Under the pieces are notes generated by a model. That model worked only from the letters and a program-made list of their open reading frames with translations, searched no databases and was not told the origin of the DNA. From assembly GCF_003570905.1 (NCBI RefSeq), contig NZ_QXJM01000039.1:496001-560000 (forward strand): a DNA stretch of 64,000 nucleotides, read 5' to 3'. The DNA comes from Cohnella faecalis. Its GTDB lineage: Bacteria > Bacillota > Bacilli > Paenibacillales > Paenibacillaceae. Both the position numbers and the translations under genes were made by a program. Shown here one piece after another: positions 3,791 to 59,600 of the stretch (position 1 is the stretch's first letter; the number at the start of each line of letters is the position of its first letter).

Positions 3791-4456
3791 TGTGGCTGCT
3801 CGGAGCTTGTGCGGAAAAAGCAGCTGTAGAAGGTACAATGCGGCTTGTTTGGCGCTTGTGAAGGAAAGCAACTGTAGAAGGGTACAGTGTGGCTTGTTCG
3901 GCGCTTGTGCGGAAAAAGCAGCTGTAAAGGTGCAGTGTGGCTTGTTCGGCGCTTGTGCGAGAAAAGCAGCTGTAAAGGTGCAGTGTGGCTTGTTCGGCAC
4001 TTGTGCGGAAAAAGTAGCTGTAAAAGGTGCATTTAGTTTGTTTGGAGGGGCTAGTCGTGAGCAAATACAAGCGTTTCGTACAGCTAATAGGATGGATTTC
4101 CTCGTATGGGGCAATAAGCAGCCCAACTAAATGTACCTATTGCAGGTAAATATGCTTGCACGACGGTTCGTGGCTGAAATAACGGTATGTTCTACAGTTC
4201 GCGCTTCTCCGATGCTTCGTAAATTGGCGGAGGCGTGCATACTGGCTCCGAGATTAGCGATAGACTGGCAGGTGGATTGGAGAAAGCAGCTATGGTTAGT
4301 TCGGTCTAGTGTGGCTTGTTTGGCGCTTGTGAAGGAAAGCAGCTGTAGAAGGGTACAGTGTGGCTTGTTCGGAGCTTATGCGAGAAAAGCAGCTGTAGAA
4401 GGTACAATGTGGCTTGTTCGGAGCTTATGCGGGAAAAGCAGCTGTAAAAGGTGCAT
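3791..4456. repeat. Array A: 48-49-bp tandem repeats in two blocks
   Basis: The unit starts TGTGGCTTGTTCGGCGC and contains AAAAAGCAGCTGTA with the palindrome CAGCTG. Units begin at 3791, 3839, 3888, 3936 and 3984 (steps 48, 49, 48, 48), and again at 4310, 4359 and 4408 (49, 49). Each block ends in a diverged half-unit (4032, 4456) that leads into a 204-bp duplicated segment. The short frames crossing the array lack ribosome sites and I do not call them genes. It lies between the 3' ends of the nuclease-like gene and the VanW gene. Confidence 0.9.
4027..4230. repeat. 204-bp direct duplication, copy 1
   Basis: Nearly identical to 4451-4654 (offset 424). Its first about 110 bp are bounded by an inverted pair: GGTGCATTTAGTTTG at 4026-4040 and CCAACTAAATGTACC near 4122-4136. 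Confidence 0.85.
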
Positions 4457-4654
4457 TTAGTTTGTTTGGAGGGGCTAGTCGGGAGCAAATACATGCGTTT
4501 CGTACAGCTAATAGGATGGATTTCCTCGTATGGGGCAATAAGCAGTCCAACTAAATGTACCTATTGCAGGTAAATATGCTTGCACGGCGGTTCGTGGCTG
4601 AAATAACGGTATGTTCTACAGTTTGTGCTTCTCCGTTGTTTCAGAAATTGGCGG
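4451..4654. repeat. 204-bp direct duplication, copy 2
   Basis: Second copy of 4027-4230 with a few substitutions. It follows the second block of array A, so block plus segment was duplicated as one unit of about 424 bp. Confidence 0.85.
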
Positions 4655-4662
4655 TAAGAAGT

Positions 4663-4695
4663 CCCGTCCCGGATTCTAGTGGAATCCGGGACGGG
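4663..4695. terminator. Strong hairpin between convergent genes
   Basis: Perfect 14-bp stem CCCGTCCCGGATTC / GAATCCGGGACGGG with loop TAGTG. There is no clear T-run on either side. It probably stops transcription from the VanW gene on the minus strand or from the array side. Confidence 0.55.
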
Positions 4696-4800
4696 CTGTG
4701 ACGGTGGATCGCTATGTTCTCGGTCCTAGCCAACCTCCGCCTCCGGCTGCTGCCGCTTGCTGCCCAAGCCGGGCCTCCCGGCCTAGCACACACCCAAACG

Positions 4801-4887
4801 CACCTTCACACCGGCTCTACCGCACCTTCACCGGCTCTGCAGCGCCTTCACACCGGGCTCTACCGCACCTTCACACCGGCTCTACCG
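4801..4887. repeat. Degenerate 22-bp tandem repeat at the VanW gene 3' end
   Basis: About four copies of CACCTTCACACCGGCTCTAC with small length changes at 4801, 4823, 4843 and 4866. The last copy overlaps the stop codon of the VanW gene, so the repeat shaped the end of the reading frame. Confidence 0.7.
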
Positions 4888-6317
4888 GGCCTTCATCCGC
4901 CGGAGCCGGTGCAGGCGAGGGAGCCGCGCCCCTTCCGGATGAAGCAGCGGGTCAGCGGGGTTCACCGCGACCAACTCCGCCTGCGCTTTGTAGGTGGAAC
5001 GGTTCAGCTTCTTGCGCTCGACAAGCTTGCCGTCCACGTATTTGAGCCGATACGTGTCCACGACGTAGCCGGGCTCGCCTTTCTGAAGCGTGTCGCTGCT
5101 GCCCAGCGCCAGCTTCGAGTTGGCAACGTAAGTCACCTTGGGCGCCACTACCTTGATCTGCTCCGTTTCCGTCCGGTATACCACGTTGTCCGGCATCGTT
5201 CCGAACAGCTTGACCGTTAACCGTTTATCCTCGACGACGGTTCGAATCAGCAGTTGCTTTCCCGTCGAATTTCGGAATCTGAAATTAACGTACCCGTCGG
5301 CGAACGTCGCGTCCAGCCCCGGAGGCAAGTAATGGACGACGAGAGAATGATTGCGCCGTTCGACGACATCGAGCCCCGCTTCGAGAATGGCATTGTACAG
5401 CGTGCTCGACACTTGGCATATACCGCCGCCAATGCCAGGCGTCAGCTTGCCTTTGACGATAACGGGAGCTTCCTTCCAGCCATACTCCTTCTCGGCTTTG
5501 CTCACGATGTCGCCGTACTGGAACACATCCCCGGCATAAGCAGCGTGTCGTTCAACGCTTTGGCCGCCGCCGTCACGTTGTAAGACCTTCCCGCCGCGCT
5601 TGAAGTGAACGAAGTGGTGAATTCGGCGATTTTTCGCTCGATTCCCTCCTCCTTCAGCTTGGCGAGCGTAACGTTCGGCACGGTTTCGACGATCGGAAGC
5701 GGCAACGAGCGGGACAATAGTTTACTGCCGCCGACTGCGCCCTCCGATAGCGAGGTCGGCTGGAGCGCCTTAACGCTCTTCTTAAGCGCGGCCAGATCGA
5801 GCGCCGTCCCCGGCCTTTCCTCCGTATAGACGACTTCGTCCCGTTCGTTGATTGTCCTCGTCGCCTCAATCGGCTTTTCTCCGGAGAAGCCTCCCCAATA
5901 GCTCTCGATTTTTTTCTCAAGAACCTTGTCGTCCCATTGGACTTGGAAGCCATGATCCGCGGCCAACTCGTTATCCATACGAAGACGAGCCCGTTCCCAC
6001 CACGAGGCGTCCCGGTACTTTTCAAGCTTGCCTATGAAATCCTCCGTCTCGATCTTCATTCCAAGCTCCTTCAACGAGCGGGCGTCCTTCATTCGTTCGC
6101 TTGAAGCGATCGTCACCTTGGTCCCCTCCAACTCTGCGATGCGAGCCTTCAATTGTCCGATCGCGTCCTCTGGCGATTGCTTGCCGACGGATAATCCGCC
6201 GACCGTGACGCCATCCGGCAGAGTATCGTCCGAGCCATAATAATAGACCGTTCCGATTCCGACTCCGGCGGCAAGAACGACTGTCGCGACCCCCGTCCAC
6301 ATCCAGCCTTTTTTCAT
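4882..6317 (-). CDS. VanW-family protein (one apparent frameshift)
   Basis: A membrane-anchored, cell-surface protein: the N-terminus MKKGWMWTGVATVVLAAGVG is a TM anchor, followed by a peptidoglycan-binding-like region (residues about 35-250) and a VanW domain (about 270-420) with KLTPGIGGGICQVSSTLYNA. VanW occurs in some vancomycin-resistance clusters and in many Firmicute surface proteins; its reaction is not known. The frame breaks at 5529-5533, where a GGGG run on the coding strand needs one more G to join DTLLMPG to DVFQYGDIV. With it the protein is 478 residues, normal for the family. ATG 6317 follows GGAGAGAG. It is divergent from ftsE and stands alone. Confidence 0.85.
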
Positions 6318-6574
6318 TGGGAATCTCTCTCCGATCCAAATAAAATTCATTTCCATATTCTTCAAACGGTTAGACAGGGAAAGTCGCACAAATGTTTTGT
6401 ACCCAAATTAAAAAATTCTTAAAATTTTCCTGCAAGTCTTGTCCCGCAACGGGTTTGGGATTCGACAAAGCCAGCGAAACCTTAGAAAACAGAGCGCATA
6501 ACATCGACAAAGAGAGGATTTTATTGCATGATGTCGAAGTATCTAAAGTCCGAATTCTAACAGGAAGTGATACC

Positions 6575-7261
6575 GTGATAGAAATGCACGACATTTGGAA
6601 GACGTATCCCGACGGCACGGTTGCCCTTCAGGATATCAACGTCGTCATCGACCGCAACGAGTTCGTCTATGTGGTCGGACCGTCCGGAGCGGGTAAATCG
6701 ACCTTCATGAAGCTCATTTACAGAGAAGAAGTTCCGACGAAAGGTCAGTTGTCCGTTAATGGATTTAATATAGGAAAGCTGAAGCATCGCAAGATTCCTT
6801 ATGTAAGACGGAATATCGGGGTTATATTCCAGGATTATCGGCTGCTTCCTAAGCTTTCGATCTACGAAAATGTGGCTTTTGCGATGGAAGTCATCGAAGC
6901 GCCGCGCCGCTCGATTAAGCGGCGTACGATGGAGGTGCTCGATCTGGTCGGCTTGAAGCATAAAGCTCAGAGCTTGCCGGCGCAGCTATCGGGCGGCGAG
7001 CAGCAACGCGTAGCCATCGCTCGCGCCATCGTCAACAATCCCGCGGTCATCGTAGCGGACGAGCCTACCGGCAATCTCGATCCCGAGACGTCATGGGGCA
7101 TCATGAAGCTCCTTGAGGAGATTAACTTCCGCGGAACGACAATCGTTATGGCTACCCATAACAGAGAAATCGTCAACTCGCTGCGCAAGAGGGTCATTGC
7201 AATCGAGAGAGGCACCATTGTTCGCGACCAGCAGAGAGGGGATTACGGCTATGATATTTAA
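6575..7261 (+). CDS. ftsE: Cell-division ATP-binding protein FtsE
   Basis: 228 residues, the standard FtsE length. Walker A GPSGAGKST (about residue 36), ABC signature LSGGEQQR (about 134), Walker B VIVADEPTGNLD (about 157) and the H-loop in MATHNRE. FtsE pairs with FtsX on the inner membrane face and uses ATP to switch on cell-wall hydrolases. The start is GTG 6575, seven nt after AGGAAG; the frame runs further upstream but without a ribosome site or family similarity. It overlaps ftsX by 11 nt, so the two are translationally coupled. Confidence 0.95.
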   Translation: MIEMHDIWKTYPDGTVALQDINVVIDRNEFVYVVGPSGAGKSTFMKLIYREEVPTKGQLSVNGFNIGKLKHRKIPYVRRNIGVIFQDYRLLPKLSIYENVAFAMEVIEAPRRSIKRRTMEVLDLVGLKHKAQSLPAQLSGGEQQRVAIARAIVNNPAVIVADEPTGNLDPETSWGIMKLLEEINFRGTTIVMATHNREIVNSLRKRVIAIERGTIVRDQQRGDYGYDI

Positions 7262-8165
7262 CTCCGTCGTCCGCCATTTGCGGGAAGGCGGCAAGAACGT
7301 AGCCCGTAACGGATGGATGTCGTTCGCCTCGATGAGCTCGATCGGCGTGTCCCTTTTTATTCTAGGCGTGTTCTTGTTGCTTGCTATTAACGTCAACAAG
7401 CTCGCCGATCAGATCGAGCAGCAGGTGCAGATTCGCGTTTACTTGAAGCTGGATACCGAGCAAGCAAAGATCGACGAGATCGAACGGCAAATCAAGAGAA
7501 TCCCCGAGGTTAAAAGCGTGACTTTCGTGTCCAAGGAAGAAGGCCTGGAGCGACTGCGCAAAAACCTGGGGGACAACGGCAGCGCCCTCCAAGGGTACGA
7601 GGACGACAAGAACCCGCTTCCGGACGGCTTCGACGTCGAGGTGTTCAGTCCTCAGAAGATCGATTTCGCGGCTAAGCAGATCACGGCTCTTAACGGCAAG
7701 GATCCCGAGCAGTCGATATGGGACGTGAAGTACGGCGAAGAAACGGTCAAGAAGCTATTTAAAATTACGAACGCTGTGAGAAACATCGGCCTGGTTATCG
7801 TGCTTGGCTTGGCGGTCATGGCGATGTTCCTGATCTCGACGACGATCAAAATGACGATACTGGCCCGCCGCCGCGAAATTTCGATCATGAAAATGGTCGG
7901 AGCGACGAATAGCTTCATTCGCTGGCCTTTCTTTATCGAAGGCGTGTTGATCGGCATCATCGGTTCCGTTATTACGGTAGCGCTTTTACTTTATGGTTAT
8001 GCTCGCATCGTTAGTACATCCAAGGTCGATATGGGGCTCATGATGATCGAGCTCTCGTCCGTCAATGAAGTGGCCTGGACGGTAGGAGGCACGATCGTCG
8101 GGATCGGCATCCTGCTCGGTGTATGGGGCAGCGTAATTTCTGTCCGCAAATATCTGAAGGTATAA
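7251..8165 (+). CDS. ftsX: Cell-division ABC transporter permease FtsX
   Basis: 304 residues with the FtsX topology: one TM helix near residues 25-45, a large extracytoplasmic domain (about 50-170, QIEQQVQIRVYLKLD onward) and three C-terminal TM helices. ATG 7251 lies inside the end of ftsE. FtsX transmits the ATP-driven signal of FtsE to an extracellular amidase or endopeptidase. The next gene encodes an EnvC/CwlO-like coiled-coil M23 protein, the likely partner here (inference from order and domain type). Confidence 0.95.
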   Translation: MIFNSVVRHLREGGKNVARNGWMSFASMSSIGVSLFILGVFLLLAINVNKLADQIEQQVQIRVYLKLDTEQAKIDEIERQIKRIPEVKSVTFVSKEEGLERLRKNLGDNGSALQGYEDDKNPLPDGFDVEVFSPQKIDFAAKQITALNGKDPEQSIWDVKYGEETVKKLFKITNAVRNIGLVIVLGLAVMAMFLISTTIKMTILARRREISIMKMVGATNSFIRWPFFIEGVLIGIIGSVITVALLLYGYARIVSTSKVDMGLMMIELSSVNEVAWTVGGTIVGIGILLGVWGSVISVRKYLKV

Positions 8166-8188
8166 TTCCTTGGAGCAGGAGGACTGGC

Positions 8189-12639: not shown

Positions 12640-12837
12640 AACGACAGTTGAAGGTTTCCTAGGGTTCCACGGCGCAGCATGGCTGCTCCGGCTCGGTCCG
12701 AGAGGGAACGCGCCCGCCGCGACGGCGAGGCGAACACGGAGGGATAAAAGCCCGGGAGTATCGTTAATTCCTGCGACTGGAGCGGCGGATGCCGCCGACC
12801 GGACGCGGGCATCGACGAGATGCTCCCGGGCTTTTTT
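12640..12837 (+). promoter_or_regulatory. Guanidine-I (ykkC) riboswitch with terminator
   Basis: The segment has the conserved landmarks of the ykkC RNA: CTAGGGTTCC (12659 onward), GGTCCGAGAG (12695-12704) and ACACGGAGGGATAAAAGCC (from 12734). AAGCCCGGGAG (12748-12758), part of the aptamer, also pairs with CTCCCGGGCTT (12823-12832), which is followed by TTTT. Ligand binding would therefore block this terminator and turn on the downstream SMR genes, the known mode of this class. Family recognition is by consensus memory; no covariance search was run. Confidence 0.9.
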
Positions 12838-12899
12838 GCGTCGAACGGAGCGGCTGCGTTTTTCCGGGAATAGTAAATCGAGCGGAGGTGCGGGTACGA

Positions 12900-13241
12900 A
12901 TGAATCGTTATTGGCTATGGCTGGTCGTAGCGGGGCTTAGCGAAATCGGCTGGGTGTCGGGACTGAAGCACGCTTCGAACGTTTGGGAGTGGGCGTTGAC
13001 GCTAATCGCTATCGCGTTCAGCTTTTGGACGCTTCTGGCGGTATCCAAAATATTGCCGGTCGGAACGGTGTATGCCGTGTTTACGGGGATTGGAGCTGCG
13101 GGAACGGTGCTGTCGGAAGCTCTGCTGTTTCATTCTACTTTGGAGCCGGCGAAGCTGACGCTCGTCATTCTTCTTATTATCGGGATCGGCGGCTTGAAGA
13201 TGACGACAAGCAAGACCGCCTCGGATGAGGAGGTATCGTAA
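12900..13241 (+). CDS. SMR-family guanidinium exporter subunit
   Basis: 113 residues, four TM helices, with the family Glu near residue 14 (AGLSEIGWVSGLKHA) that exchanges protons for the cation. It is the first of two SMR genes behind a guanidine-I riboswitch, equivalent in position to YkkC/GdnC in Bacillus, where the paired subunits export guanidinium. ATG 12900 follows GGAGGTG. It overlaps the next gene by one base (TAATG), so the two are coupled. The C-terminal tail (TSKTASDEEVS) is polar. Confidence 0.9.
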   Translation: MNRYWLWLVVAGLSEIGWVSGLKHASNVWEWALTLIAIAFSFWTLLAVSKILPVGTVYAVFTGIGAAGTVLSEALLFHSTLEPAKLTLVILLIIGIGGLKMTTSKTASDEEVS

Positions 13242-13555
13242 TGGCTTGGGTTGCGCTCGTATTTGCGGGGTTGTTTGAAGTGGTGGGCGTTCTCGGTATT
13301 AATCGTTGGAAGGAGCGTCGCGACGCTATCGGAATTACGCTTCTCGTAGGAGGCTTCGCGCTTAGCTTCGTTCTCCTTACGATAGCAATGAATTCTTTGT
13401 CGATGGGGACCGCTTATGCAATCTGGACAGGCATTGGAACAATTGGAGGCACGGCTGTCGGAATGGCGTTTTTCGGAGAGTCCCGCAAGCCCGTCCGCCT
13501 CTTTTTTCTCGGGCTTGTCGTCGTCTCCGCCATCGGCTTGAAGCTAATCGAGTAG
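13241..13555 (+). CDS. SMR-family guanidinium exporter, second subunit
   Basis: 104 residues with four TM helices and the conserved Glu (FAGLFEVVGVLGINR). It starts within the stop codon of the first SMR gene (TAATG at 13239-13243). Paired SMR genes usually form heterodimers; together with the riboswitch this points to a YkkD/GdnD-like partner. The substrate is inferred from the riboswitch, not from the protein. Confidence 0.9.
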   Translation: MAWVALVFAGLFEVVGVLGINRWKERRDAIGITLLVGGFALSFVLLTIAMNSLSMGTAYAIWTGIGTIGGTAVGMAFFGESRKPVRLFFLGLVVVSAIGLKLIE

Positions 13556-20208: not shown

Positions 20209-20532
20209 ATGAGCGAAAAACTGCTGAATGAAGTGCTGGGAGAATTGCGGGCCTTCAAGTCCGAGTTTCGGGAATTCAAGTCCGAGATGCTGGACTTCAA
20301 GACTGAGATGCTGGACTTCAAGTTTGAGATGCAGGACTTCAAGCTGGATACGGAAATCAGATTGGAGCGCACCGAGTCGAAAATCGACCGGCTGGAGCGC
20401 AAGCTGGACGCCACCTTCGAGCAAGTCGTTCGCAACACCGAGCACGATTCCAAATGGAACGAAATTGCGGTTTCCGTAGAGGAGCAGCAAACAGACATCA
20501 AAATTCTTAAAAAGCTTGCGGCGGGCGGATGA
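20209..20532 (+). CDS. Small coiled-coil protein between uvrB and uvrA
   Basis: 107 residues, almost wholly helical, starting at ATG 20209 after GAGGAGTG. Residues about 13-45 are internal repeats of 7-residue type (FKSEFRE, FKSEMLD, FKTEMLD, FKFEMQD, FKLDTEI), then a coiled coil with Leu/Ile spacing (ESKIDRLERKLDATFEQV) and a short basic tail. There is no TM helix and no known domain. It could be an oligomerising or scaffold protein. It may be co-transcribed with uvrB, since no terminator separates them, but any repair role is unproven. Confidence 0.6.
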   Translation: MSEKLLNEVLGELRAFKSEFREFKSEMLDFKTEMLDFKFEMQDFKLDTEIRLERTESKIDRLERKLDATFEQVVRNTEHDSKWNEIAVSVEEQQTDIKILKKLAAGG

Positions 20533-23740: not shown

Positions 23741-25137
23741 AACCAAACGTAGTTGGGCTACTCGGCGAAAAGACGTATGAGCGCGAGCCGCAACCCAACG
23801 TGGTTGGGCTATCCGGCGAAAAGGCGTATGAGCGAGAGCTGTAACCAAACGTGATTGGGCTATTCGGCGGAATAGCGTACGAGTGCGAGCCGCAACCCAA
23901 CGTGGTTGGGCTATCCAGCGGAATAGCGTACGAGCGCGAGCCGCAACCCAACGTGGTAGGGCTATTCGGCGAAAAGGCGTACGAGCGCGAGCTGTAACCA
24001 AACGTAGTTGGGCTACTCGGCGAAAAGGTGTATAAGCGCAAGCTGTAACCAAACGTGGTTGGGCTATCCGGCGAATAGCGTACGAGTGCGAGCCGCAACC
24101 CAACGTGGTTGGGCTATCCAGCGGAATAGCGTACGAGCGCGAGCCGCAACCAAACGTGGTTGGGCTATCCGGCGGAATAGTGTACGAGTGCGAGCCGCAA
24201 CCCAACGTGGTTGGGCTATCCAGCGGAATAGCGTACGAGCGCGAGCCGCAACCAAACGTGGTTGGGCTATCCAGCAGAATAGCGTACGAGCGCGAGCCGC
24301 AACCCAACGTGGTGGGGCTATTCGGCGAAAAGGCGTATGAGCAGCTGTAACCAAACGTGGTTGGGCTATCCGGCGAAATAGCGTACGAGCGCGAGCTGTA
24401 ACCCAACGTGGTTGGGCTATTCGGCGAAAAGGCGTATGAGCGCGAGCTGTAACCCAACGTGGTTGGGCTATCCGGCGAAATAGCGTACGAGCGCGAGCCG
24501 TAACCAAACGTGGTTGGGCTATCCGGCGAAAGAGCGTACGAGCGCGAGCCGCAACCCAACGTGGTGGGGCTATTCGGCGAAAAGGCGTATGAGCGCGAGC
24601 TGTAACCAAACGTGGTTGGGCTACTCGGCGAAATAGCGTACGAGTGCGAGCCGCAACCCAACGTGGTTGGGCTATCCGGCGGAATAGCGTACGAGTGCGA
24701 GCCGCAACCCAACGTGGTTGGGCTATCCAGTGGAATAGCGTACGAGCGCGAGCCGCAACCCAACGTGGTTGGGCTATTCGGCGAAAAGGCGTATGAGCGC
24801 AAGCTGTAACCAAACGTAGTTGGGCTACTCGGCGAAATAGCGTACGAGCGCGAGCCGCAACCCAACGTGGTAGGGCTATTCGGCGAAAAGGCGTACGAGT
24901 GCGAGCCGCAACCCAACGTGGTTGGGCTATCCGGCGGAATAGCGTACGAGTGCGAGCCGCAACCCAACGTGGTTGGGCTATCCAACGGAATAGCGTACGA
25001 GCGCGAGCCGCAACCCAACGTGGTGGGGCTATTCGGCGAAAAGGCGTATGAGCGCAAGCTGTAACCAAACGTAGTTGGGCTATTTGGCGGAATAGCGTAC
25101 GAGCGCGAGCCGCAACCCAACAAAGTTGGGCTATCGC
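23741..25137. repeat. Array B: about 28 tandem 51-bp repeats
   Basis: GTTGGGCTA recurs from 23752 to 25125, 28 copies in all; every interval is 51 bp except two, which are 3 and 1 nt short. Two unit types alternate irregularly: one with CCGGCGGAATAGCGTACGAG and one with TTCGGCGAAAAGGCGTATG. CCCAAC-GTG-GTTGGG forms a hairpin at each junction, and GCTAT/ATAGC pairs inside the first type. The array fills the gap between uvrA and ilvN and ends 4-8 bp before the ilvN stop codon. Reading frames crossing it are by-products of a period divisible by three. Confidence 0.95.
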
Positions 25138-25140
25138 TCT

Positions 25141-25683
25141 TCAAAATCGGACTATAGAGCTCCCAAGCGGCTGACCTGCGATTGCAACGGGGCAAATTTC
25201 ATCCCGGCTCATGGCGGTCTCCCCCGTTCTCGTCATTTGTACGATGCCATAGCGGGCGACGAGCTGAACGAACGCGTCGTTCTTGTCCGTAGAGCCAATG
25301 ACTTGGACAATCATCGATTCCGGCGCAATATCGATGATGGAGCAGCGGAACGTCTGGATCAAATTTTGAATTTCCGCCCGGAGCGCCGGATCGGTTTTGA
25401 GCTTAATGAGCATCAGTTCCCTGGAAACGAAGGGAGCCGAATTCAAATGATTTACTTCGATAACGTCGATGAGCTTGCGCAATTGATGGCCGATTTGTTC
25501 AATCGTCCGTTCGTCACCGTCGGCAACGGCAATGATTCGGGATAAGCCTTGCTGCTCGGATTCGCCGACAGTGATGCTTTCAATGTTGTAGCTCCGCCTG
25601 GAGAAGAGTCCCGATACCCGTTGCAAGACGCCGGGCGCGTTACGGACAAGAATGGACAACGTTTGCTTACGGTTAGCCCTCAT
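25141..25683 (-). CDS. ilvN: Acetolactate synthase small (regulatory) subunit
   Basis: 180 residues. The N-terminal ACT domain (residues 5-80, ILVRNAPGVLQRVSGLFSRR) binds branched-chain amino acids for feedback inhibition; the C-terminal half (KTDPALRAEIQNLIQTF... TGETAMSRDE) belongs to the family. ATG 25683 overlaps the ilvB stop (TAATG). The last about 18 residues (ICPVAIAGQPLGSSIVRF) run toward array B, whose final unit ends just outside the stop, so the C-terminal tail may have been altered by the repeat. It acts in valine, leucine and isoleucine synthesis. Confidence 0.95.
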   Translation of the reverse strand: MRANRKQTLSILVRNAPGVLQRVSGLFSRRSYNIESITVGESEQQGLSRIIAVADGDERTIEQIGHQLRKLIDVIEVNHLNSAPFVSRELMLIKLKTDPALRAEIQNLIQTFRCSIIDIAPESMIVQVIGSTDKNDAFVQLVARYGIVQMTRTGETAMSRDEICPVAIAGQPLGSSIVRF

Positions 25684-27420
25684 TAGTCGAAATCCCCCAC
25701 GATCATATCCTCCAATGCTTTTCCTTGCGGAATCATCGGATACACAAGCTCGCCCTTGGAGACGACAAAATCGATCAGGACAGGCCCATCCGTCGCCAGC
25801 GCTTCCCTCCAAGCCGCCTCGGCTTCCTTGGGCGTAGTTGCGCGAAGTCCCTTTACACCGTATGCTTCGGCCAGCTTGACGAAGTCGGGACTTCCCGACA
25901 AGTCGATCTGGCTGTAACGACCGTCGTACACGAGCTCCTGCCATTGCTTGATCATACCGAGCGTACCGTTGTTGATAACGGCGATTTTGACGGGGATCCG
26001 GTGAATGGCGCAAATGGCGAGCTCTTGAGAACACATCTGCATTCCCCGTCTCCATTGATGGAAATGACCGTCTTGTCCGGGTTGCCGACTTGGGCGCCGA
26101 TCGCAGACGGAAAACCGAAGCCCATCGTACCGAGTCCGCCCGAAGTAAGCAGCGACCGCGGATGCTTGAATCGGTAAAATTGCGCCGTCCACATCTGATG
26201 CTGGCCGACATCGGTCGTTACGATGGCGTCACCGTCGGTCATACGGGAGATAAGCTCAATGACTAGCTGCGGCTTCAATATATTTTCAGATGCCCGATAT
26301 TGCAGGGGGTGGCTCATTTTCATACTCTTCAATCGTTTGACCCAATCCGATTTGCTCGGAATTTGTCGGCCTTCCATTGATCTATTTAACTTGCTCAGCA
26401 CGTTCGAAGCATCCCCGGTTATCGAAATCGATGCGGGCACAAGCTTGCCGATTTCCGCCGGATCCAGGTCGATGTGGGCGACACGGGCGTTCGGAGCGAA
26501 GCCGTCCAGCCTCATCGTCACTCTGTCGTCGAAGCGGGCGCCTACGGCGACAAGCAGATCGCATCCCAACAAAGCTTTGTTGGCTGTGTACGATCCGTGC
26601 ATTCCCGGCATGCCCAGCCAAAGCTCGTGATCTCCGGGAAAGCCCCCCAAGCCGAGCAAAGTCGTTGTTACCGGAACGCCGAGCTTCTCTGCCAATTCGA
26701 TCAGCTCGGCGGAAGCGCCCGACTGGATGATCCCGCCTCCGGCCAGCAAGAGCGGCTGTTTCGCTTCGGCAAGCGCGACAGACAATTGTTCGATCTGTGC
26801 GGAGTCGGGTTCGACATCAGGCGTATAGCCGGGAATGTCGATCCGATCCGGATAATGGAACGCCGCCATTGCCGCGGATACGTCTTTCGGAATGTCGACG
26901 AGAACGGGGCCTTTGCGCCCAGTCCCGGCTATGTGAAACGCCTCCCGGATAATGCGGGGCAAGTCGGTCGCCCGGTTTACAAAATAGCTGTGCTTCGTAA
27001 TCGGCTGCGTCATCCCGACGATATCGGCCTCCTGGAAGGAATCGGTGCCGATTAACGAGGTCGCGACATTGCCGGTAATGACGACAAGCGGAACCGAATC
27101 CATATGGGCGGTCGCGATTCCGGTAACGAGGTTCGTAGCCCCCGGCCCGAGGTCGCTAAACATACTCCGACCTTGCCCGTCGATCGGGCGTAACCGTCGG
27201 CGGCATGGATAGCTCCCTGTTCATGCCTCGTGAGCAAATGCCGAAAATCGGGATTTCCGTGCATGGCATCGTAAATATAGAGAACGGCTCCGCCCGGATA
27301 GCCGAACACGCAGTCGACGCCTTCAAGCAGCAGCGACCGCAGCAGCATTTCCGAGCCCGATACGATATCCGGCCTAAGCAATCGTTCTCGTTTTTGCGGA
27401 TCAAGCGACAGCAATGACAT
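25683..27420 (-). CDS. ilvB: Acetolactate synthase large (catalytic) subunit (two apparent frameshifts)
   Basis: A thiamine-diphosphate enzyme joining two pyruvates, or pyruvate and 2-oxobutyrate. N-terminal [18 protein letters not shown] with [15 protein letters not shown] (catalytic Glu), central FAD-binding-type domain, and the C-terminal ThDP motif starting GDG and ending NNGTLGM. Breaks at 27144-27145 (one G lost on the plus strand; repaired [13 protein letters not shown]) and 26044-26047 (repaired [14 protein letters not shown]). Repaired length is 579 residues. ATG 27420 follows AGGAGGGG. It forms an operon with ilvN. No T-box was seen in the 124-bp upstream gap. Confidence 0.95.
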
Positions 27421-34301: not shown

Positions 34302-35645
34302 AAAGGCTTATTGGTCTGGGCACGTGCGCATGGTGGATATAACCGTCTGTAGTTGGGCTAATTGGTCTGGGAACGTGCGCTTGTTGAGTATAACCGTCTG
34401 TAGTTGGGCTAATTGGTCTGGGAACGTGCGCTTGGTGGATATAACCGTCTGTAGTTGGGCTAATTGGTCTGGGAACGTGCGCTTGTTGAGTATAACCGTC
34501 TGTAGTTGGGCTAATTGGTCTGGGAACGTGCGCTTGTTGAGTATAACCGTCTGTAGTTGGGCTAATTGGTCTGGGAACGTGCGCTTGGTGGATATAACCG
34601 TCTGTAGTTGGGCTAATTGGTCTGGGAACGTGCGCTTGTTGAGTATAACCGTCTGTAGTTGGGCTAATTGGTCTGGGCACGTGCGCATGGTGAATATAAC
34701 CGGCTGCAGTTGGGCTAATTGGTCTGGGCACGTGCGCTTGGTGAAAATAACCGTCTGCAGTTGGGCTAATTGGTCTGGGAACGTGCGCTTGTTGAGTATA
34801 ACCGTCCGTAGTTGGGCTAATTGGTCTGGGCACGTGCGCATGGTGGATATAACCGTCTGTAGTTGGGCTGATTGGTCTGGGAACGTGCGCTTGGTGGGTA
34901 TAACCGGCTGTAGTTGGGCTAATTGGTCTGGGCACATGCGCTTGGTGGGTATAACCGGCTGTAGTTGGGCTAATTGGTCTGGGCACATGCGCTTGTTGGG
35001 TATAACCGTCTGCAGTTGGGCTAATTGGTCTGGGCACATGCGCTTGTTGGGTATAACCGTCTGCAGTTGGGCTAATTGGTCTGGGCACGTGCGCATGGCG
35101 GATATAACCGTCTGTAGTTGGGCTAATTGGTCTGGGAACGTGCGCTTGGTGGGTATAACCGGCTGTAGTTGGGCTAATTGGTCTGGGCACATGCGTTTGT
35201 TGGGTATAACCGTCTGCAGTTGGGCTAATTGGTCTGGGCACGTGCGCATGGCGGAAATAACCGTCTGTAGTTGGGCTAATTGGTCTGGGCACATGCGCTT
35301 GTTGGGTATAACCAGCTGCAGTTGGGCTAATTGGTCTGGGCACGTGCGCATGGCGGGTATAACCAGCTGCAGTTGGGCTAATTGGTCTGGGCACGTGCGC
35401 ATGGTGAAAATAACCGTCTGCAGTTGGGCTAATTGGTCTGGGCACATGGGCTTGTTGAGTATAACCGTCTGCAGTTGGGCTAATTGGTCTGGGAACGTGC
35501 GCATGGCGGATATAACCGTCTGCAGTTGGGCTAATTGGTCTGGGCACGTGCGCATGGCGGGTATAACCAGCTGCAGTTGGGCTAATTGGTCTGGGCACAT
35601 GCGCTTGGTGGGTATAACCGTCTGCAGTTGGGCTAGCTAGATCTG
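34302..35645. repeat. Array C: 26 tandem 51-bp repeats with perfect spacing
   Basis: TTGGTCTGGG starts at 34311 and recurs 26 times up to 35586: 25 intervals totalling 1275 bp, exactly 51 each. The constant part is TTGGGCTAATTGGTCTGGG and ATAACC; the variable part alternates between CATGGTGGAT-like and CTTGTTGAGT-like blocks. Many units contain the palindrome GCACGTGC. Frames across it are open on both strands, but the changes fall mostly at first and second codon positions, which argues against coding. It lies between the hflX terminator and the SWIM gene start. Confidence 0.95.
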
Positions 35646-35702: not shown

Positions 35703-36977
35703 TCAGCTTTCAATCAAAACGAAGGAGTCTCGGTATTTTTCGAAATCCGCCGCCTTGCATTCCAGCTTGAGCCTCGTGCCCTCAGGCTCGTAGGTTGTAG
35801 ACTGAACGTGGGCGTGCTCATTGAAGTAGGCAACCAGTCTCCCCTGATCGAAGGGGATAATGACTTCGCACTGGACGTAGTCGTTAAAGATGCGAGACCG
35901 GATCAGCTGCAGAAGCTCCGCGATCCCGGTTTGCTTCTTGGCGGACAGGTAGACGCCATCCTCCTGAATCTGCGGATAGTCACGATCCGTCAAGTCCAGC
36001 TTGTTGTAGGCGTAGATGGTCGGAATATGTTCGGCGCCGAGCTCCTTCAGCGTCGCTTCGGTGACGGCAGCGTGCTGCTTATGCTCCGGATTGGAATAGT
36101 CGATGACGTGAACGAGCAGATCGGCTTCGGCCACCTCCTCCAGCGTCGAACGGAAAGCCTTAACCAGATGATGGGGCAGCTGGCTGACGAATCCGACCGT
36201 ATCGGTGAGCAGGAACGATTTGCGATCGGGAAGCTCAATGCTTCGAACCGACGTTTCCAGCGTAGCGAACAGCATATCTTTGACCAGCACATGCTTGTTC
36301 GAGCCGGGATTGTACGTATCGACCATCACGTTCATCAAGCTCGATTTGCCCGCATTCGTATACCCGACGAGACAGACGACGGGAATGGCGTTCTTTCGCC
36401 GCTGCTTCCGCTGAATTTGCCGCGTGGCGACCAGCTTCTCCAGCTCGGACTGCAGCGCCGTTATTCGTTCTTCGATCCGCCGCCGGTCGAGCTCCAGCTT
36501 GGTTTCCCCGGCCCCTCTGTTCTTCAAGCCGGCCCCGCCGCCTTGGCGGCCAAGCGATTCGCGAAGACCGACCAGTCGAGGAAGCATATATTGGAGCTGG
36601 GCGACCTCCACTTGAAGCTGCGCTTCCCTCGTCTGCGCACGCTCGGCAAAAATATCAAGGATCAAGATCGTCCGGTCGATTACCTTCCTCTGCAGCTTCG
36701 CCTCCAGATTGCGAATTTGCGAAGGCGAGAGCTCGTCGTTGAAAATAACGAAGACAGAAGCCTCGTGAGCTTCGAGCAGCGTCGACAATTCCTCAAGCTT
36801 GCCCGTTCCGATGTAGTGAGAAGGGTTCACGCGATTCGCTTTCTGGCTGAGCGAGTCCACGATCTCCACGTCGCACGCGGCTGCAAGGTTGCGGAGCTCC
36901 TCCATCGAGTAGTCGAAGTCGGGCTTGCTGTGCAGCTCGACTCCGACGATTATCGCTTTTTGTTGCGTTTGTTCCAT
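35703..36977 (-). CDS. hflX: Ribosome-associated GTPase HflX
   Basis: 424 residues. N-terminal HflX domain (IVDSLSQKANRVNPSHYIGTGKLEEL), the glycine-rich linker GRQGGGAGLKNRGAGETKLE, then the GTPase domain: G1 GYTNAGKSS, G3 DTVGF, G4 NKLD. HflX splits stalled or heat-damaged ribosomes. ATG 36977 follows GGGAGGT. It is monocistronic, ending in a strong terminator next to array C. Confidence 0.96.
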   Translation of the reverse strand: MEQTQQKAIIVGVELHSKPDFDYSMEELRNLAAACDVEIVDSLSQKANRVNPSHYIGTGKLEELSTLLEAHEASVFVIFNDELSPSQIRNLEAKLQRKVIDRTILILDIFAERAQTREAQLQVEVAQLQYMLPRLVGLRESLGRQGGGAGLKNRGAGETKLELDRRRIEERITALQSELEKLVATRQIQRKQRRKNAIPVVCLVGYTNAGKSSLMNVMVDTYNPGSNKHVLVKDMLFATLETSVRSIELPDRKSFLLTDTVGFVSQLPHHLVKAFRSTLEEVAEADLLVHVIDYSNPEHKQHAAVTEATLKELGAEHIPTIYAYNKLDLTDRDYPQIQEDGVYLSAKKQTGIAELLQLIRSRIFNDYVQCEVIIPFDQGRLVAYFNEHAHVQSTTYEPEGTRLKLECKAADFEKYRDSFVLIES

Positions 36978-44127: not shown

Positions 44128-44156
44128 ACTTGGCTCCGCAGGAGCGACGTCAAAAG

Positions 44157-44919
44157 CGCCACAATTCCACCGGAACGCCAGCAAATCCGGTGGAGTTGTG
44201 ACTCAAAACGCCACAATTCCACCGGAACGCCAACCTACCGCCCGAGATGTGACTCAAAGCGCCACAATTCCGCCGGAACGCCAGCCTACCGCCCGAGATG
44301 TGACTCAAAGCGCCACAATTCCACCGGAACGCCAACCTACCGCCCGAGATGTGACTCAAAGCGCCACAATTCCGCCGAAACGCCAGCCAACCGCCCGAGA
44401 TGTGACTCAAAGCGCCACAATTCCGCCGGAACGCCAACCTACCGCCCGAGATGTGACTCAAAGCGCCACAATTCCGCCGAAACACCAGCCAACCGCCCGA
44501 GATGTGACTCAAAGCGCCACAATTCCGCCGGAACGCCAACCTACCGCCCGAGATGTGACTCAAAACGCCACAATTCTGCGGGTTTGCCAGCCAACCGCCC
44601 GAGATGTGACTCAAAGCGCCACAATTCCGCCGAAACGCCAGCCTACCGCCCGAGATGTGACTCAAAGCGCCACAATTCCGCCGGAACGCCAACCAACCGC
44701 CCGAGATGTGACTCAAAGCGCCACAATTCCGCCGGAACGCCAACCTACCGTCCGAGATGTGACTCAAAGCGCCACAATTCCACCGAAACGCCAGCCTACC
44801 GCCAGAGTTGTGACTCAAAGCGCCACAATTCCGCCGGAACGCCAGCCTACCGCCCGAGATGTGACTCAAAGCGCCACAATTCCGCCGGCACGTCTGCCAA
44901 TCCGCCCTGCGAGCAGGAG
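44157..44919. repeat. Array D: 15 tandem 51-bp repeats
   Basis: CGCCACAATT at 44157, 44209 and then every 51 bp to 44872; only the first interval is 52. Unit: CGCCACAATTCCGCCGGAAC plus GCCAGCCTACCGCCCGAGAT plus GTGACTCAAAG. TTCCG-C-CGGAA is a tight palindrome in each unit. The frames on both strands are open because 51 is divisible by three. It sits between the 3' ends of a small gene and the NlpC/P60 gene. Confidence 0.95.
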
Positions 44920-54502: not shown

Positions 54503-54551
54503 AAAAAAGACCCGTGGAATTGGCACTTGTAAAAGTGCCTTTCCACGGGTC
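54503..54551 (-). terminator. Terminator of the tatC-tatA operon
   Basis: Long stem GACCCGTGGAA-GGCACTT / AAGTGCC-TTCCACGGGTC; the minus-strand end has six T. Confidence 0.85.
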
Positions 54552-54615
54552 GCAGTTCAAGAGGGGTTACATATTTTTTTCATTTTCAAGCGCGCTGAAG
54601 TTGTGCGGGCTCGTC

Positions 54616-54819
54616 TTACATTAGCTTCCCGGTCTCTTCCTTCGACAGCTCGATCGGGTCGAGCTTTTCATCGTCGGCTATGCCTCGGGTGGAATTGCGG
54701 AACTCCCGCAACGTTTCCCCGAACGCCTTGCCGAGCTGCGGCAGCTTGGCCGGTCCGAAGACGATAAGCGCGATAATGAGAATAATCAGTAACCCCGATA
54801 CTCCGATATTGTGAAACAT
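54616..54819 (-). CDS. tatA: Twin-arginine translocase subunit TatA
   Basis: 67 residues: one TM helix ([18 protein letters not shown]), the [20 protein letters not shown] amphipathic helix, then an acidic tail. TatA oligomerises to open the Tat pore for folded proteins. ATG 54819 follows GGGAGG by 7 nt; an upstream in-frame ATG is too close to that site. It lies downstream of tatC, in one operon. Confidence 0.96.
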
Positions 54820-54847
54820 GGTCATTCCTCCCAAATTGTTAGTGAAG

Positions 54848-55582: not shown

Positions 55583-55690
55583 CCAATCACCTGCCGTTCC
55601 AATAATTGTCACATGCTCGTCCCTTAGAATGCCCCAAGCCCGAATGGTTATACTAACCGCGAATTGAAATCGATCCTTGGATCGGGAGGA

Positions 55691-56070
55691 ATGAAGATGA
55701 CCAGATTCAAAGTTCTTGCGACGGGACTAAGCTTGGCGATAGCGCTCTCGTTGACAGCTTGCGGCAAAAGCAACAACAACACGACGCCGTCGCCATCGGC
55801 CCCGGCTCTCCCGCAGGCTCGCCTTCGGGGACGACATCGGCAGCAGCCGGGGAAGCGGAGGCGATTTACAAGTCCAATTGCATGGGCTGCCACGGCGTCG
55901 ATCTAAGCGGCGGAGTAGGACCTAACCTGCAGAAGGTCGGCGGCAAGCTTTCGACGGCTGATGTTTCCGCGCGAATCAGCGCCGGGGGCAACGGAATGCC
56001 GGCATTCAAAGGCACATTGACGGATGATCAGATCAATGCGTTGGCTTCGTGGCTAAGCGGCATGAAGTGA
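55691..56070 (+). CDS. Lipoprotein cytochrome c (one apparent frameshift)
   Basis: Lipobox LSLTACGKS, a Ser/Pro/Thr linker, then a small class I cytochrome c: heme motif CMGCH and axial Met in NGMPAFKG. The frame breaks at 55800-55803 (CCCC needs a fifth C), restoring SAPGSPAGSPSGTTSAAAGE. Repaired length is 126 residues. ATG 55691 follows GGGAGGA. It is likely tethered to the outer membrane face and takes electrons from the nearby dehydrogenase (inference from distance); it resembles CccB/cytochrome c-551 types of Bacillus. Confidence 0.9.
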
Positions 56071-56084
56071 ACGACGCGCAGGGC

Positions 56085-56106
56085 GGCCGAGAGGCCGTCT
56101 TTTTTA
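56085..56106 (+). terminator. Terminator of the cytochrome c gene
   Basis: GGGCGGCC-GAGA-GGCCGTC then six T. Confidence 0.75.
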
Positions 56107-56203
56107 CATCACAGATATGTGTGTCGGAAAGCGGATACTGTCGGATGGGCAGTCTAATTTGCGGCGGCACCGAATCGGAAGGTTCAGAAAGGCGGCAAAC
56201 GAC

Positions 56204-57644
56204 ATGAACGAGGCAAGCTTGTCCCTTCATACGGATAAATACCAGATCAACATGATGTACGCCCATTGGGTGCAAGGAACCCATCGGCAATGGGCCGTGT
56301 TCGATCTTTATTTTCGCAGCCTGCCGTTCGGGAACGGATATGCGGTATTCGCCGGTCTGGAGCGGGTCGTTCGCTATTTGAGCAACCTGCGGTTCGAAGA
56401 GGACGATATCGCCTATTTGCGAACGCAGGAGGAAAATTACCCGGAAGCTTTCCTGGAGGAGCTGCGGCGTTTTCGGTTCAGCGGACACCTTTATTCCGTG
56501 CCGGAAGGAACGCTGGTGTTCCCCAACGAGCCGATCGTGCGAGTGGAGGGGCCGATCATGGAGTCGCAGCTCATCGAGACGGCGCTCCTTAACTTTGTTA
56601 ATTACCAGACGCTGATCGCTACGAAAGCTTCGAGAGTGAAGCAGGCCGCTCCTCACGATATATTACTCGAATTCGGCTCTCGCAGGCACAGGAAGCGGAT
56701 GCGGCCATTTGGGGGACGAGAGCGGCTTACATCGGCGGCTTTCACGCAACTTCGAATCTGCTCGCGGGCAAGCTGTTCGGCATTCCGGCCAAAGGAACTC
56801 ACGCGCATTCGTGGGTACAGAGCCATGACGGAGAAGAGGAGGCGTTCCGCAAATACGCGGAGGCGCTGCCCGATCAAGTGACGTTGCTCGTCGATACGTA
56901 CGACACGTTGCGCAGCGGGGTTCCGAACGCCATTCGAATCGCTCGGGAGCTGGAAAGCCGCGGCAAAAAGATGGATGCGATTCGGCTGGACAGCGGCGAC
57001 CTCGCTTATTTATCGAAGCAGGCGCGTCGCATGCTCGACGAGGCGGGGCTGTCCGATGTAAAAATCGTCGCGTCGAACGATCTGGACGAGAATTTGATCT
57101 TCAATCTGAAGGCGCAGGGGGCGCGAATCGATATTTGGGGAGTCGGAACGAAGCTGATTACGGCAGCCGATCAGCCCGCGCTCGGCGGGGTGTACAAGCT
57201 GGCGGCCCGCGAGAAAGACGGAGAATATGTGCCGGTCATCAAAATTTCGGGCAATCCGGAGAAGGTGACCAATCCGGGGTCAAGGAAGCGTACCGGCTCG
57301 TCAGCCGGACCACGGGCAAGGCGAAGGCCGATTACTTGGCTCTCCCGCATGAATCGGATGTGCGGGAAGGAGTTCCCCTCCGGCTGATCGATCCGGTTCA
57401 TACCTACATAGAGGAGCCGTTCGACGATTACGAGGCAGTGCCGTTGCTTCGCCCCGTATTCCGGGACGGGGAGTTGATCATCGAGCTGCCGAAGCTGGAC
57501 GAAATTCGCGAGTATCGCGAGCGTCAGCTCGAGCTGCTATGGCCCGAATATTTGCGGAAGCTCAATCCGGAGCAATATCGCGTCCATCTCAGTCCCGAGC
57601 TATTGAGGCTGAAGCTGGAGCTGATACGCCGTTACCAGGCCTAG
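56204..57644 (+). CDS. pncB: Nicotinate phosphoribosyltransferase (two apparent frameshifts)
   Basis: Salvages nicotinate to NaMN with PRPP and ATP. N-terminal LSLHTDKYQINMMYAHW, central AAYIGGFHATSNLLAGKLFG with GTHAHSWVQ (the active-site His), IRLDSGDLAYLSKQARRMLD and WGVGTKLITAADQPALGGVY. Breaks at 56685-56686 (GG needs a third G, restoring SRRAQEADAAIWGTRAA) and 57276-57279 (GGGG needs a fifth G, restoring NPGVKEAYRLV). Repaired length is 480 residues. ATG 56204 follows AAAGGCGG. Confidence 0.95.
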
Positions 57645-57678
57645 CGAGTTCCTGTAAACTCGACCGGCGACGGTGAAT

Positions 57679-57710
57679 AAGGGCTGTCCCTCTCTTGGAG
57701 GGACGCCCTT
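57679..57710. terminator. Hairpin before array E
   Basis: AAGGGC-T-GTCCCTC, loop, GAGGGAC-GCCCTT; no T-run. It probably serves pncB. Confidence 0.5.
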
Positions 57711-57717
57711 GCAAGTT

Positions 57718-58234
57718 CGATCACACTTCTCGCCGAATGTATGGTACCTCGTCCCACTGTTGCGCTCTCGACCACACTTCTCGCCGAATGTATGGTACCT
57801 CGTCCCACTGTTGCGCTCTCGACCACAAATCTCGCCGATTGTATGGTACCTCGTCCCACTGTTGCGCTCTCGACCACACTTCTCGCCGAATGTATGGTAC
57901 CTCGTCCCACTGTTGCGCTCTCGTTCACACTTCTCGTCGAATGTATGGTACCTCGTCCCACTGTTGCGCTCTCGACCACACTTCTCGCCGAATGTATGGT
58001 ACCTCGTCCCACTGTTGCGCTCTCGACCACACTTCTCGCCGATTGTATGGTACCTCGTCCCACTGTTGCGCTCTCGACCACACTTCTCGCCGAATGTATG
58101 GTACCTCGTCCCACTGTTGCGCTCTCGACCACACTTCTCGCCGATTGTATGGTACCTCGTCCCACTGTTGCGCTCTCGACCACACTTCTCGCCGAATGTA
58201 TGGTACCTCGTCCCACTGTTGCGCTCTGAACCTC
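57718..58234. repeat. Array E, left part: 10 tandem 51-bp repeats
   Basis: CGACCACACTTCTCGCCGAA recurs at 57718 and every 51 bp to 58177 (nine perfect intervals). Each unit holds ATGGTACCTCGTCCCACTGT with the palindrome GGTACC. All three plus frames are open across it, an effect of the period. The end (GAACCTC, 58228-58234) is diverged and touches the IS end. Confidence 0.95.
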
Positions 58235-58267
58235 TGTCAAGAAAATAGACACTTAGAATCGAGAAAA

Positions 58268-59089
58268 TTAGGCCGGATTTGAAAACGCCCGTTCGTAACT
58301 GTTCGGCGATAAATAGCCAATGGTTGAATGAATTCGTTCACCATTATAGAAACATGTAATGTACTCAAAAATCTGTTTCTTCGCGTCCTCACGCGTCCTG
58401 AATTTTGTAAGATAAATGAGTTCTTTCTTGAGGACGCTATGGAACGATTCAATGCAGGCATTGTCGTAGCAGTTGCCTTTTCGGCTCATGCTTCCTTCCA
58501 TCTTGTACTGCTTCATTTTCTTCTGGTATTCGTGTGAGGCGTATTGGCTTCCCCGATCGGAGTGATGGAGTAATCCGGCTCCTGGCCGACGCTGGGCGTA
58601 GGCACGATCTAGCGCCTTAATGACGAGATCTTTGGTCATTCGATCCGACATGTGAAATCCAACAATTTTACGGCTGTACAGGTCCATGACGCTCGCTAAA
58701 TACAACCAGCCTTCATTGGTCGGGCAGTAAGTAATATCAGTAACCCACGCCTGATTGGGAGCCTCAGGTATGAACTTCCTGTTCAGCGTATTATCATGTA
58801 CGGGCAGGTTGTGTTTGGAATTCGTGGTAGCTTTATATTTCTTGACGGTACGGGATTTTAACCCCATTACCTGCATCAAGCGAGCAACGCGTTTCTCGGA
58901 TACAACGACTCCCCGAGTACGAAGGGCAGCTGTTACTTTCGGGCTGCCATACAGGCGTCTGGAGCCAAGAAATATACGCCTAATCTTCTGCTCCAAATCT
59001 TCTCTGCGTTTGCGGCGCTCAAGCCGCTTGTCGTAGCTTTTTTGCCATGCGTAGTAACCGCTTCGGGAAACCTTAAATACAGAGCACAT
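58268..59089 (-). CDS. IS3-family transposase OrfB (DDE integrase domain)
   Basis: 273 residues from its first internal Met; in life probably made as an OrfAB fusion. DDE residues: Asp in WVTDITYCP, Asp in LLHHSDRGSQYAS and Glu in NACIESFHSVLKKE. The upstream part of its frame (IFPFIYKYRFKLRVAKMCS) is the usual link to OrfA. The shift site is A6G (TTAAAAAAGGC on the minus strand, about 59170-59178), where a -1 slip joins the frames. Confidence 0.95.
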   Translation of the reverse strand: MCSVFKVSRSGYYAWQKSYDKRLERRKRREDLEQKIRRIFLGSRRLYGSPKVTAALRTRGVVVSEKRVARLMQVMGLKSRTVKKYKATTNSKHNLPVHDNTLNRKFIPEAPNQAWVTDITYCPTNEGWLYLASVMDLYSRKIVGFHMSDRMTKDLVIKALDRAYAQRRPGAGLLHHSDRGSQYASHEYQKKMKQYKMEGSMSRKGNCYDNACIESFHSVLKKELIYLTKFRTREDAKKQIFEYITCFYNGERIHSTIGYLSPNSYERAFSNPA

Positions 59090-59136
59090 CTTTGCGACAC
59101 GGAGCTTAAAGCGGTATTTGTAGATAAACGGAAAAA

Positions 59137-59421
59137 TCAGCGCCGGTCTTTTGCAAAGTAGTGCATTGCCTTTTTTAAGATTTCATTTTCCTCCTGCAAG
59201 TCACGAAGTTGTTTCTGCAAATCGCGTAGCGCCTTATCCTCAGGCTTTAGATTACCGCTTCCTGGGAAAGCCTGCATACCATCCTGTTTGAGCTCGGCAA
59301 TCCAACGATATAGTGAGTTTTCATGGACGCCTACCTCACGTGCTACCTGCGCAATCGGCTTGCCTTCTTGAATCATCTGAACCGTCTGCATCTTAAACTC
59401 TCTGTCGTATTTCTTCGTCAT
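59137..59421 (-). CDS. IS3-family transposase OrfA
   Basis: 94 residues: helix-turn-helix (EFKMQTVQMIQEGKPIAQVA... HENSLYRWIAEL) and a C-terminal leucine zipper (LQKQLRDLQEENEILKKAM). Binds the IS ends. ATG 59421 lies 6 nt after GAGGTG; an in-frame GTG at 59430 lacks spacing. Confidence 0.93.
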   Translation of the reverse strand: MTKKYDREFKMQTVQMIQEGKPIAQVAREVGVHENSLYRWIAELKQDGMQAFPGSGNLKPEDKALRDLQKQLRDLQEENEILKKAMHYFAKDRR

Positions 59422-59493
59422 GTCGGACACCTCGAATGAAAGTAATTATATTCTCCCATTCTCGATTCTTCGTGTCCACTTTCTAGTCTAACA

Positions 59494-59600
59494 GCACTCT
59501 CGATCACGCATCCCGCCGAATGTATGGTACCTCGTCCCACTGTTGCGCTCTCGTTCACACTTCTCGCCGAATGTATGGTACCTCGTCCCACTGTTGCGCC
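59494..59600. repeat. Array E, right part: about 2 repeats
   Basis: Two units after the IS; the first is diverged (GATCACGCATCCCGCCGAAT), the second matches the array consensus. They share the period and orientation of 57718-58234. Confidence 0.9.

Follow-up and report, generated by a model that had tools for sequence, protein, structure and literature searches.

Why should tandem repeats keep one unit length while their sequence is left free to change? The question is raised by a 64,000-nucleotide stretch of the Cohnella faecalis genome (assembly GCF_003570905.1, contig NZ_QXJM01000039.1, here C33, positions 496001-560000; hereafter the window), in which gaps between genes hold tandem arrays with units of about 51 bp. 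Arrays were called with Tandem Repeats Finder (TRF) and their units were then read. We find that the arrays belong to a known, unexplained class of constant-length 51-53-nt repeats of Firmicutes, and that across most genomes of the genus a dyad of fixed span recurs every 51-52 bp. Unit length and the symmetry of the dyad are thus kept as the sequence turns over. As a possible cause we favor a factor that recognizes the dyad, or copying driven by hairpins, with the satellites being otherwise selfish.

Unit length and unit sequence

The repeat period was surveyed in an 864-kb sample, consisting of the window and 40 stretches of 20 kb, from an assembly of 6.43 Mb (65 contigs, 92.2% complete, 6.9% contaminated). 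Half of the 40 stretches form one contiguous block (C33:1-400,000). Because several of the other 20 had been picked at weak matches to array B of the window, array density is best taken from the contiguous part, which holds 19 arrays in 400 kb. In the lag spectrum of the sample, 19,987 scan-window starts have at least 75% self-match at lag 51 against 1,818 at lag 52, and the next lag below 100 is lag 90, with 857. Periods in this spectrum are far from evenly spread over 10-100 bp, the pattern that would have counted against an earlier sequence-only reading of the window.

TRF reported 75 repeats in the sample, 28 of period 51, two of period 52 and several of multiples. An independent scan gave 41 regions, which became 40 arrays after removal of a 63-bp coding-type repeat (L031:829). 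The unit is 51 bp long in 35 of these arrays, 52 bp in four and 50 bp in one; two arrays split by an insertion sequence (IS), namely E/F in the window and the pair at L027, are each counted twice among the 40. Together the arrays cover 28.6 kb, or 3.3% of the sample. Length is also kept inside them, with 473 of 510 full units of exact length and 40 distinct indels against 786 distinct substitutions. Under neutral drift such numbers would let lengths spread after sequence turnover, an argument that we weigh informally, the arrays being related. The proposal that length is either selected or set by a copying mechanism fits this pattern, in which length is far more constant than sequence throughout the genome and the genus.

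How free is the sequence? Unit consensuses were compared across all rotations and on both strands, with the 99.5th percentile of shuffles as threshold. This threshold is exceeded by 181 of 780 array pairs, and single linkage at the same level yields groups of 21, 6, 9, 2, 1 and 1 arrays. The word CGCCGAA is matched at all seven positions in 15 of the 40 units (0.9% of shuffles) and at six or more in 30 (18% of shuffles). The arrays do fall into several families, as had been read from the window, but to say that they do not share one sequence is too strong when so many pairs are alike and one word is common to many units. The type-1 unit, that of array E, is present at many loci of this genome; its dimer has no match in 39 other genomes, 24 of them from the same genus. 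Units outside arrays are scarce (nine matches at E<=0.5, one of them <1e-3), and dispersal as single units was rejected.

On average over the arrays, units resemble their neighbors more than they resemble units farther away, and super-periods of two or four units occur in some arrays (L041, L060). Together these features point to growth and homogenization, either by unequal exchange or by duplication at short range. In arrays C, D and L044:717 the likeness is flat. Two other identities were rejected. CRISPR arrays do not fit, since the unit recurs in its entirety (at lag 51, 82-94% in most arrays) and there are no unique spacers. Coding repeats do not fit either, the codon scores of open reading frames (ORFs) in the arrays being low (best 20.2, mostly <10).

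A dyad of fixed span in the genus

A short palindrome had been claimed for every unit. By a generic test, 1 of 40 units in this genome has one at p<=0.05, which is chance, and the RNA-fold z-scores of the units are likewise at chance (means 0.33 and -0.26 on the two strands). Significant inverted repeats (p<=0.05) do, however, occur in 8 of 21 arrays of relatives and, against simple shuffles, in 17 of 27 published Bacillus 52-nt consensus units. The claim is partly supported: at chance by a general test in the genome for which it was made, it gains ground from the arrays outside it and from a dyad of fixed span.

This dyad was found in a set of 40 units from this genome and 32 from relatives, dereplicated to 35, with 304 combinations of span and ends tried. 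The strongest combination is a TA-ended dyad spanning exactly 21 bp, present in 12 of the 35 units against 0.71 expected (0/200 shuffles); six of the 12 come from this genome, so that shared ancestry is possible. TA-ended dyads spanning 20 or 22 bp are absent from all 35. When the pairing condition is dropped, TA...TA pairs occur at span 21 in 17 of 35 units and at span 34, the circular complement of 21, in 16 units, with no other span above nine.

Within this genome, 11 of 40 units carry the 21-bp TA-ended dyad, with half-sites TA(G/A)CC...GG(T/C)TA. Array C of the window is among them, and its dyad, TAACC-N11-GGCTA, returns every 51 bp; array B has TAACC/CAACC...GGCTA on the + strand. Among relatives, the inner pairs, which played no part in the selection, are paired in 31 of 50 cells, where 16.9 are expected (0/2000 re-pairings). 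This genome keeps the outer half-sites, and its inner pairing has been lost or was never present. A separate observation concerns array D, where a near-perfect inverted repeat of unit 1 is gone from later units, as if the edge were the older form.

Is the dyad spaced as the unit is? The 37 genomes of the genus were searched for two TAACG-N11-CGTTA or two TAAGC-N11-GCTTA dyads with an unspecified 15-45 bp between them, a design open to all periods from 36 to 66; the half-sites of both patterns derive from arrays in three of the genomes (G016, G019, G022). The TAACG type was found at 362 places in 22 genomes and the TAAGC type at 377 places in 15. Pooled, they occupy 739 places in 28 of 37 genomes, and the reversed control is zero in every genome. 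Among the 31 genomes that had given the discovery set no dyad, 24 match. The periods, among the matches listed (75 of each type), are 50 (4), 51 (55), 52 (12), 61 (1) and 62 (3) for TAACG and 51 (23) and 52 (52) for TAAGC. Thus 142 of these 150 lie at 51-52, four at 50 and four at 61-62. Some paired dyads in G006 and G001 alternate steps of 51 and 61-62 bp, and 62 is about one helical turn above 51.

The arms of these dyads change together. We aligned 45 dyads from the matches listed, one per array with some omissions. At the four inner pairs that the patterns leave free, 82.2% of cells are paired against 51.5% in shuffles (0/500), and 66 cells are double-changed against 23.6. The covariation score is 0.833 against 0.263 in shuffles, an effect inflated by an unquantified amount because the dyads are related and fall into two half-site groups. 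Controls slid by 1-3 columns score low (0.091-0.240), which argues against relatedness as its only source.

Placement of the arrays and an insertion sequence within them

Where do the arrays sit? With genes predicted by a home-made codon score, they lie between predicted genes, with a single overlap (L038). Convergent gaps bear arrays in 9 of 64 cases, co-directional gaps in 20 of 203 and divergent gaps in 2 of 83 (convergent versus divergent, p 0.010). A terminator-like hairpin stands ahead of the array at 14 of the 35 gene 3' ends that face an array within 160 bp, a set that includes the transposase gene of the IS described below; among control gene ends, unmatched for operon position, 38 of 272 have one. 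There is no strand bias relative to the flanking genes, the C-rich strand being - in 11 and + in 8 of 19 '++' gaps.

Individual positions are not conserved. In the flanks examined of hflX orthologues, a 51-bp array is present at 2 of 24 loci. One genome (G017) has it 18 bp behind hflX, as here, and another (G003) on the gene's other side, and by eye both are unlike array C in sequence; positional conservation was rejected on these counts. When stretches of 27 relatives were sampled, arrays of the class appeared in eight (two of them, G010 and G013, doubtful), and the 4-60 kb from each of the other 19 contained none. Such small samples miss arrays, since the pattern searches found them more widely in the genus.

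The window's arrays E and F are one array with an identical unit type, divided by an IS3-family element. F had been read as a separate, decayed array, an account that the shared unit and the intervening element replace. The left end of the IS has six matches in the genome; the right end has six full matches and, at C8:87967, a further match of 28 bases. Full copies lie in the window and at L027 (C33:123k), C22:152.8k, C34:133.6k, C33:1714.8k and C33:744k. Units of 51 bp flank both sides of all six; for comparison, arrays account for about 3.3% of the sample. The insertion point within the unit is roughly the same in three copies (window, C22 and C34) and, judged by eye, in that at 744k. Two other members of this family, IS1397 and ISKpn1, insert in REP (repetitive extragenic palindromic) palindromes, according to the portion of PMC1525189 used here.

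The features of the window are collected in the table. Of the six intergenic arrays first counted, TRF confirms that the repeats are real; the number falls because E and F are one, and array A stands outside the 51-bp class. Array A occurs twice, in a lag-424 tandem duplication (3789-4640) that follows a gene whose AbiEi-like match is weak. Nearby, 4799-4895 holds 4.5 copies of 22-bp units, close to the 20-21-nt second class of published repeats, and a 21-bp tandem repeat of 4.7 copies (20246-20343) lies within a predicted gene (20209-20532) without a Pfam match. Rfam gives one match in the window, to a Guanidine-I riboswitch (12648-12760) that lies ahead of two small multidrug resistance family genes (12789-13241 and 13241-13555) and outside the arrays; a known RNA family was rejected for the arrays on this ground. 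Array B adjoins an acetolactate synthase region (25141-27163, - strand). Its large-subunit ORF (25952-27163) has 403 aa, while open frames in relatives mostly have about 580-620, and the ACT domains of the small subunit lie in an overlapping ORF of another frame; a frameshift or an assembly error is likely. The best matches of the HflX-like protein are from Paenibacillus (73-74%), in keeping with a Firmicute host of the Bacillus/Paenibacillus kind.

Table. Arrays, IS and associated features, in positions of the window
Feature	Position	Strand	Description
Array A	3789-4031	+	TRF period 48 (units 48-49 bp), 5.0 copies; outside the 51-bp class
Array A, second copy	4308-4451	+	49 bp, 2.9 copies; inside the lag-424 duplication
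Array B	23741-25135	- (strand of CGCC(G)-first reading)	TRF 51 bp x 27.4
Array C	34305-35635	-	TRF 51 bp x 26.1; behind the HflX-like gene
First 21-bp TA-ended dyad of array C	34340-34360	+	TAACC-N11-GGCTA; counted from the unit listing
HflX-like gene	35703-36977	-	Terminator-like hairpin between gene and array C
Array D	44153-44907	+	TRF 51 bp x 14.8; convergent gap between DUF6953 gene and NlpC/P60 gene
Inverted repeat in first unit (44153-44203) of array D	44160-44200	none	14-bp arms, one mismatch, 13-base loop; by eye
Array E	57717-58227	+	TRF 51 bp x 10.0; type-1 unit; left part of the E/F array
IS3-family element	58227-59496	-	Splits the E/F array; from ORF content and mapped ends
rve/HTH_21 ORF of the IS	58268-59089	-	Domain matches
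HTH_Tnp_1 ORF of the IS	59137-59430	-	Domain matches
Array F	59497-59603	+	TRF 51 bp x 2.1; right part of the E/F array

Explanations and known repeats

What could hold length and symmetry while sequence changes? The arrays are non-coding satellites of the 51-53-nt class, and a factor responsive to dyad or hairpin symmetry may act on them with five-turn spacing, a reading to which we give slightly less than an even chance. The unit of the genus is built on a 21-bp dyad, two helical turns long, with TAA...TTA-like ends and arms that vary yet stay complementary, and successive dyads, 51-52 bp apart, stand five helical turns from one another. We infer a putative factor that would read the symmetry of the dyad or its hairpin and not a fixed sequence, and that would need or make the five-turn spacing. 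It could copy units through template switching that hairpins provoke and a built-in ruler measures, or bind adjacent units along one face of the helix; that the satellites spread would then be due chiefly to their being tolerated at gene 3' ends. The conserved TA ends favor recognition and the perfect arms favor hairpins. In this genome the ends are kept and the arms are not, which speaks somewhat for recognition. A bolder version is somewhat unlikely: that the satellites of the genus, and perhaps of the whole Firmicutes class, inherit the dyad with its co-changing arms and a five-turn ruler instead of a sequence, that a dedicated, putative non-RAYT enzyme or protein specific for dyad or hairpin copies or holds them, and that an IS3-family transposase evolved to land there.

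Several results weigh against a dyad-reading factor. This genome has no match with either paired-dyad pattern, its half-sites being different; 29 of its 40 units lack the TA-ended 21-bp dyad, and its inner arms are paired in 18 of 55 cells, where 17.5 are expected and 996 of 2000 re-pairings reach as many. Two covariation measures lie within shuffles (472/500 for pairs with a double change, 128/500 for further pair types), and the 45 aligned dyads, which are related, come from two half-site groups. No reliable phase to the dyad is seen at array ends (p about 0.056), so that the in-phase ends predicted by a possible nick-and-fill ruler were rejected as not significant. Edge units are no more diverged than inner ones (19/35, p 0.70), and the edge decay of simple unequal-crossover models is likewise not seen. 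No candidate protein was identified. Moreover, perfect palindromes can come from mutation alone, through template-switch correction.

Mutation might indeed explain the arrays entirely, if template switching at hairpins both perfected palindromes and made tandem copies, and if the 51-52-bp step were a property of the replication machinery under no selection. The strong inverted repeats of relatives and of published Bacillus units, the local duplication pattern and the terminator-like hairpins before arrays all suit this account, which we nevertheless consider rather unlikely: template switching gives no reason to expect that TA ends should be conserved at exactly 21 bp, a strong palindrome is absent from most arrays of this genome, and the published class is missing in many Bacillus species (PMC8161180). 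Selected chromosome structure is the other main alternative. Subirana and Messeguer proposed a nucleoid protein or small RNAs as roles for the 52-nt repeats (PMC8161180), and in the former case a dimeric protein would sit on each dyad and polymerize at five-turn spacing. A dyad of about two turns in a period of about five would suit such a protein, as would the retention of TA-ended half-sites in this genome despite the loss of inner pairing. Yet half-sites vary between arrays of one genome, type-1 units having another dyad; orthologous gaps are not conserved, as hflX illustrates; and array abundance is patchy among relatives. We regard this as distinctly unlikely.

An RNA role, in which arrays would be transcribed to hairpin-rich small RNAs or would act in 3' untranslated regions, draws on the position of arrays after gene 3' ends, on the covarying inner arms of relatives and on the RNA-seq hits that 52-nt arrays of B. 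coagulans yield in the passages of PMC8625621 consulted. It seems highly improbable given unit fold energies at chance in this genome, the lack of strand bias and the terminator-like hairpins that often precede the array. Still less probable is a REP/BIME (bacterial interspersed mosaic element) system mobilized by RAYT, the Y1 transposase, although extragenic palindromes targeted by an IS3-family element are what the relevant part of PMC1525189 describes for REPs. A REP/BIME-like system had been suggested from the window alone. PF01797 has 0 matches in this genome (assembly 92% complete), on which ground a RAYT-driven system was rejected. The domain is present in 12 of 37 genomes of the genus with no tie to array abundance (5 of 17 genomes with at least five paired dyads, 7 of 20 with fewer).

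Why does a constant length matter? Fixed-length, free-sequence bacterial tandem repeats have been called enigmatic since 2020, and a fixed-span dyad with covarying arms, found every 51-52 bp in most genomes of the genus, gives that length a concrete object. The IS, whose six full copies all lie in arrays, offers a second protein that recognizes them. If length and symmetry are inherited rather than sequence, this would be a form of DNA repeat that searches by sequence similarity miss.

How do the arrays compare with other repeats? We know of no fixed unit length for the tandem repeats of Borgs. These repeats are, like ours, pervasive and fast-evolving, but Borgs are extrachromosomal elements of archaea, as far as the cited portion of PMC9879509 goes. 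In the part of PMC6749651 used here, just two reference species of that survey have long-unit satellites that are dispersed and non-coding. Those of Leptospira interrogans resemble the present arrays in being dispersed and non-coding and in forming several families of one length (three with 46-nt units), and differ in that length, in their small number (42 satellites in chromosome I) and in lying within genes in a third of cases. REP, BIME and REPIN sequences, as treated in parts of PMC1525189 and PMC3733652, are likewise short extragenic palindromes in which an IS3-family element inserts. By contrast, the present units stand in tandem at a fixed 51-52 bp and no Y1 transposase is found in this genome; a palindromic unit, the mark of REPs, is at chance here (1/40 units) and present in 8 of 21 arrays of relatives.

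The closest relative is the class of Subirana and Messeguer, which means that the family is not undescribed, as had been supposed. In 176 Bacillus genomes they reported 52-nt repeats (51-53: 1,886 cases) whose length is constant and whose sequence varies; according to them, Paenibacillus is especially rich in such repeats, and many Bacillus species have none (PMC8161180). The arrays of this genome share the length (39 of 40 at 51 or 52, one at 50), the several families per genome, the species-specific sequence with short words common within a species, and the non-coding nature. They differ in being mostly 51 rather than 52, in their number (40 arrays in 864 kb) and in the size of many of them, which exceeds the 4-10 repeats reported as usual. 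The only related remark in that paper is that short sequences and their reverse often occur within one repeat; its text does not contain the TA-ended dyad, the covariation, the IS targeting or the 3'-end placement reported here (PMC8161180). No prior description of the dyad, the covariation or the IS targeting was found in the literature searched; the Subirana and Messeguer 2020 J Bacteriol paper (10.1128/JB.00229-20) may contain part of these findings. Apparently new to this class, then, are a genus-wide 21-bp TA-ended dyad, its covarying inner arms and an IS whose six full copies all lie within the arrays.

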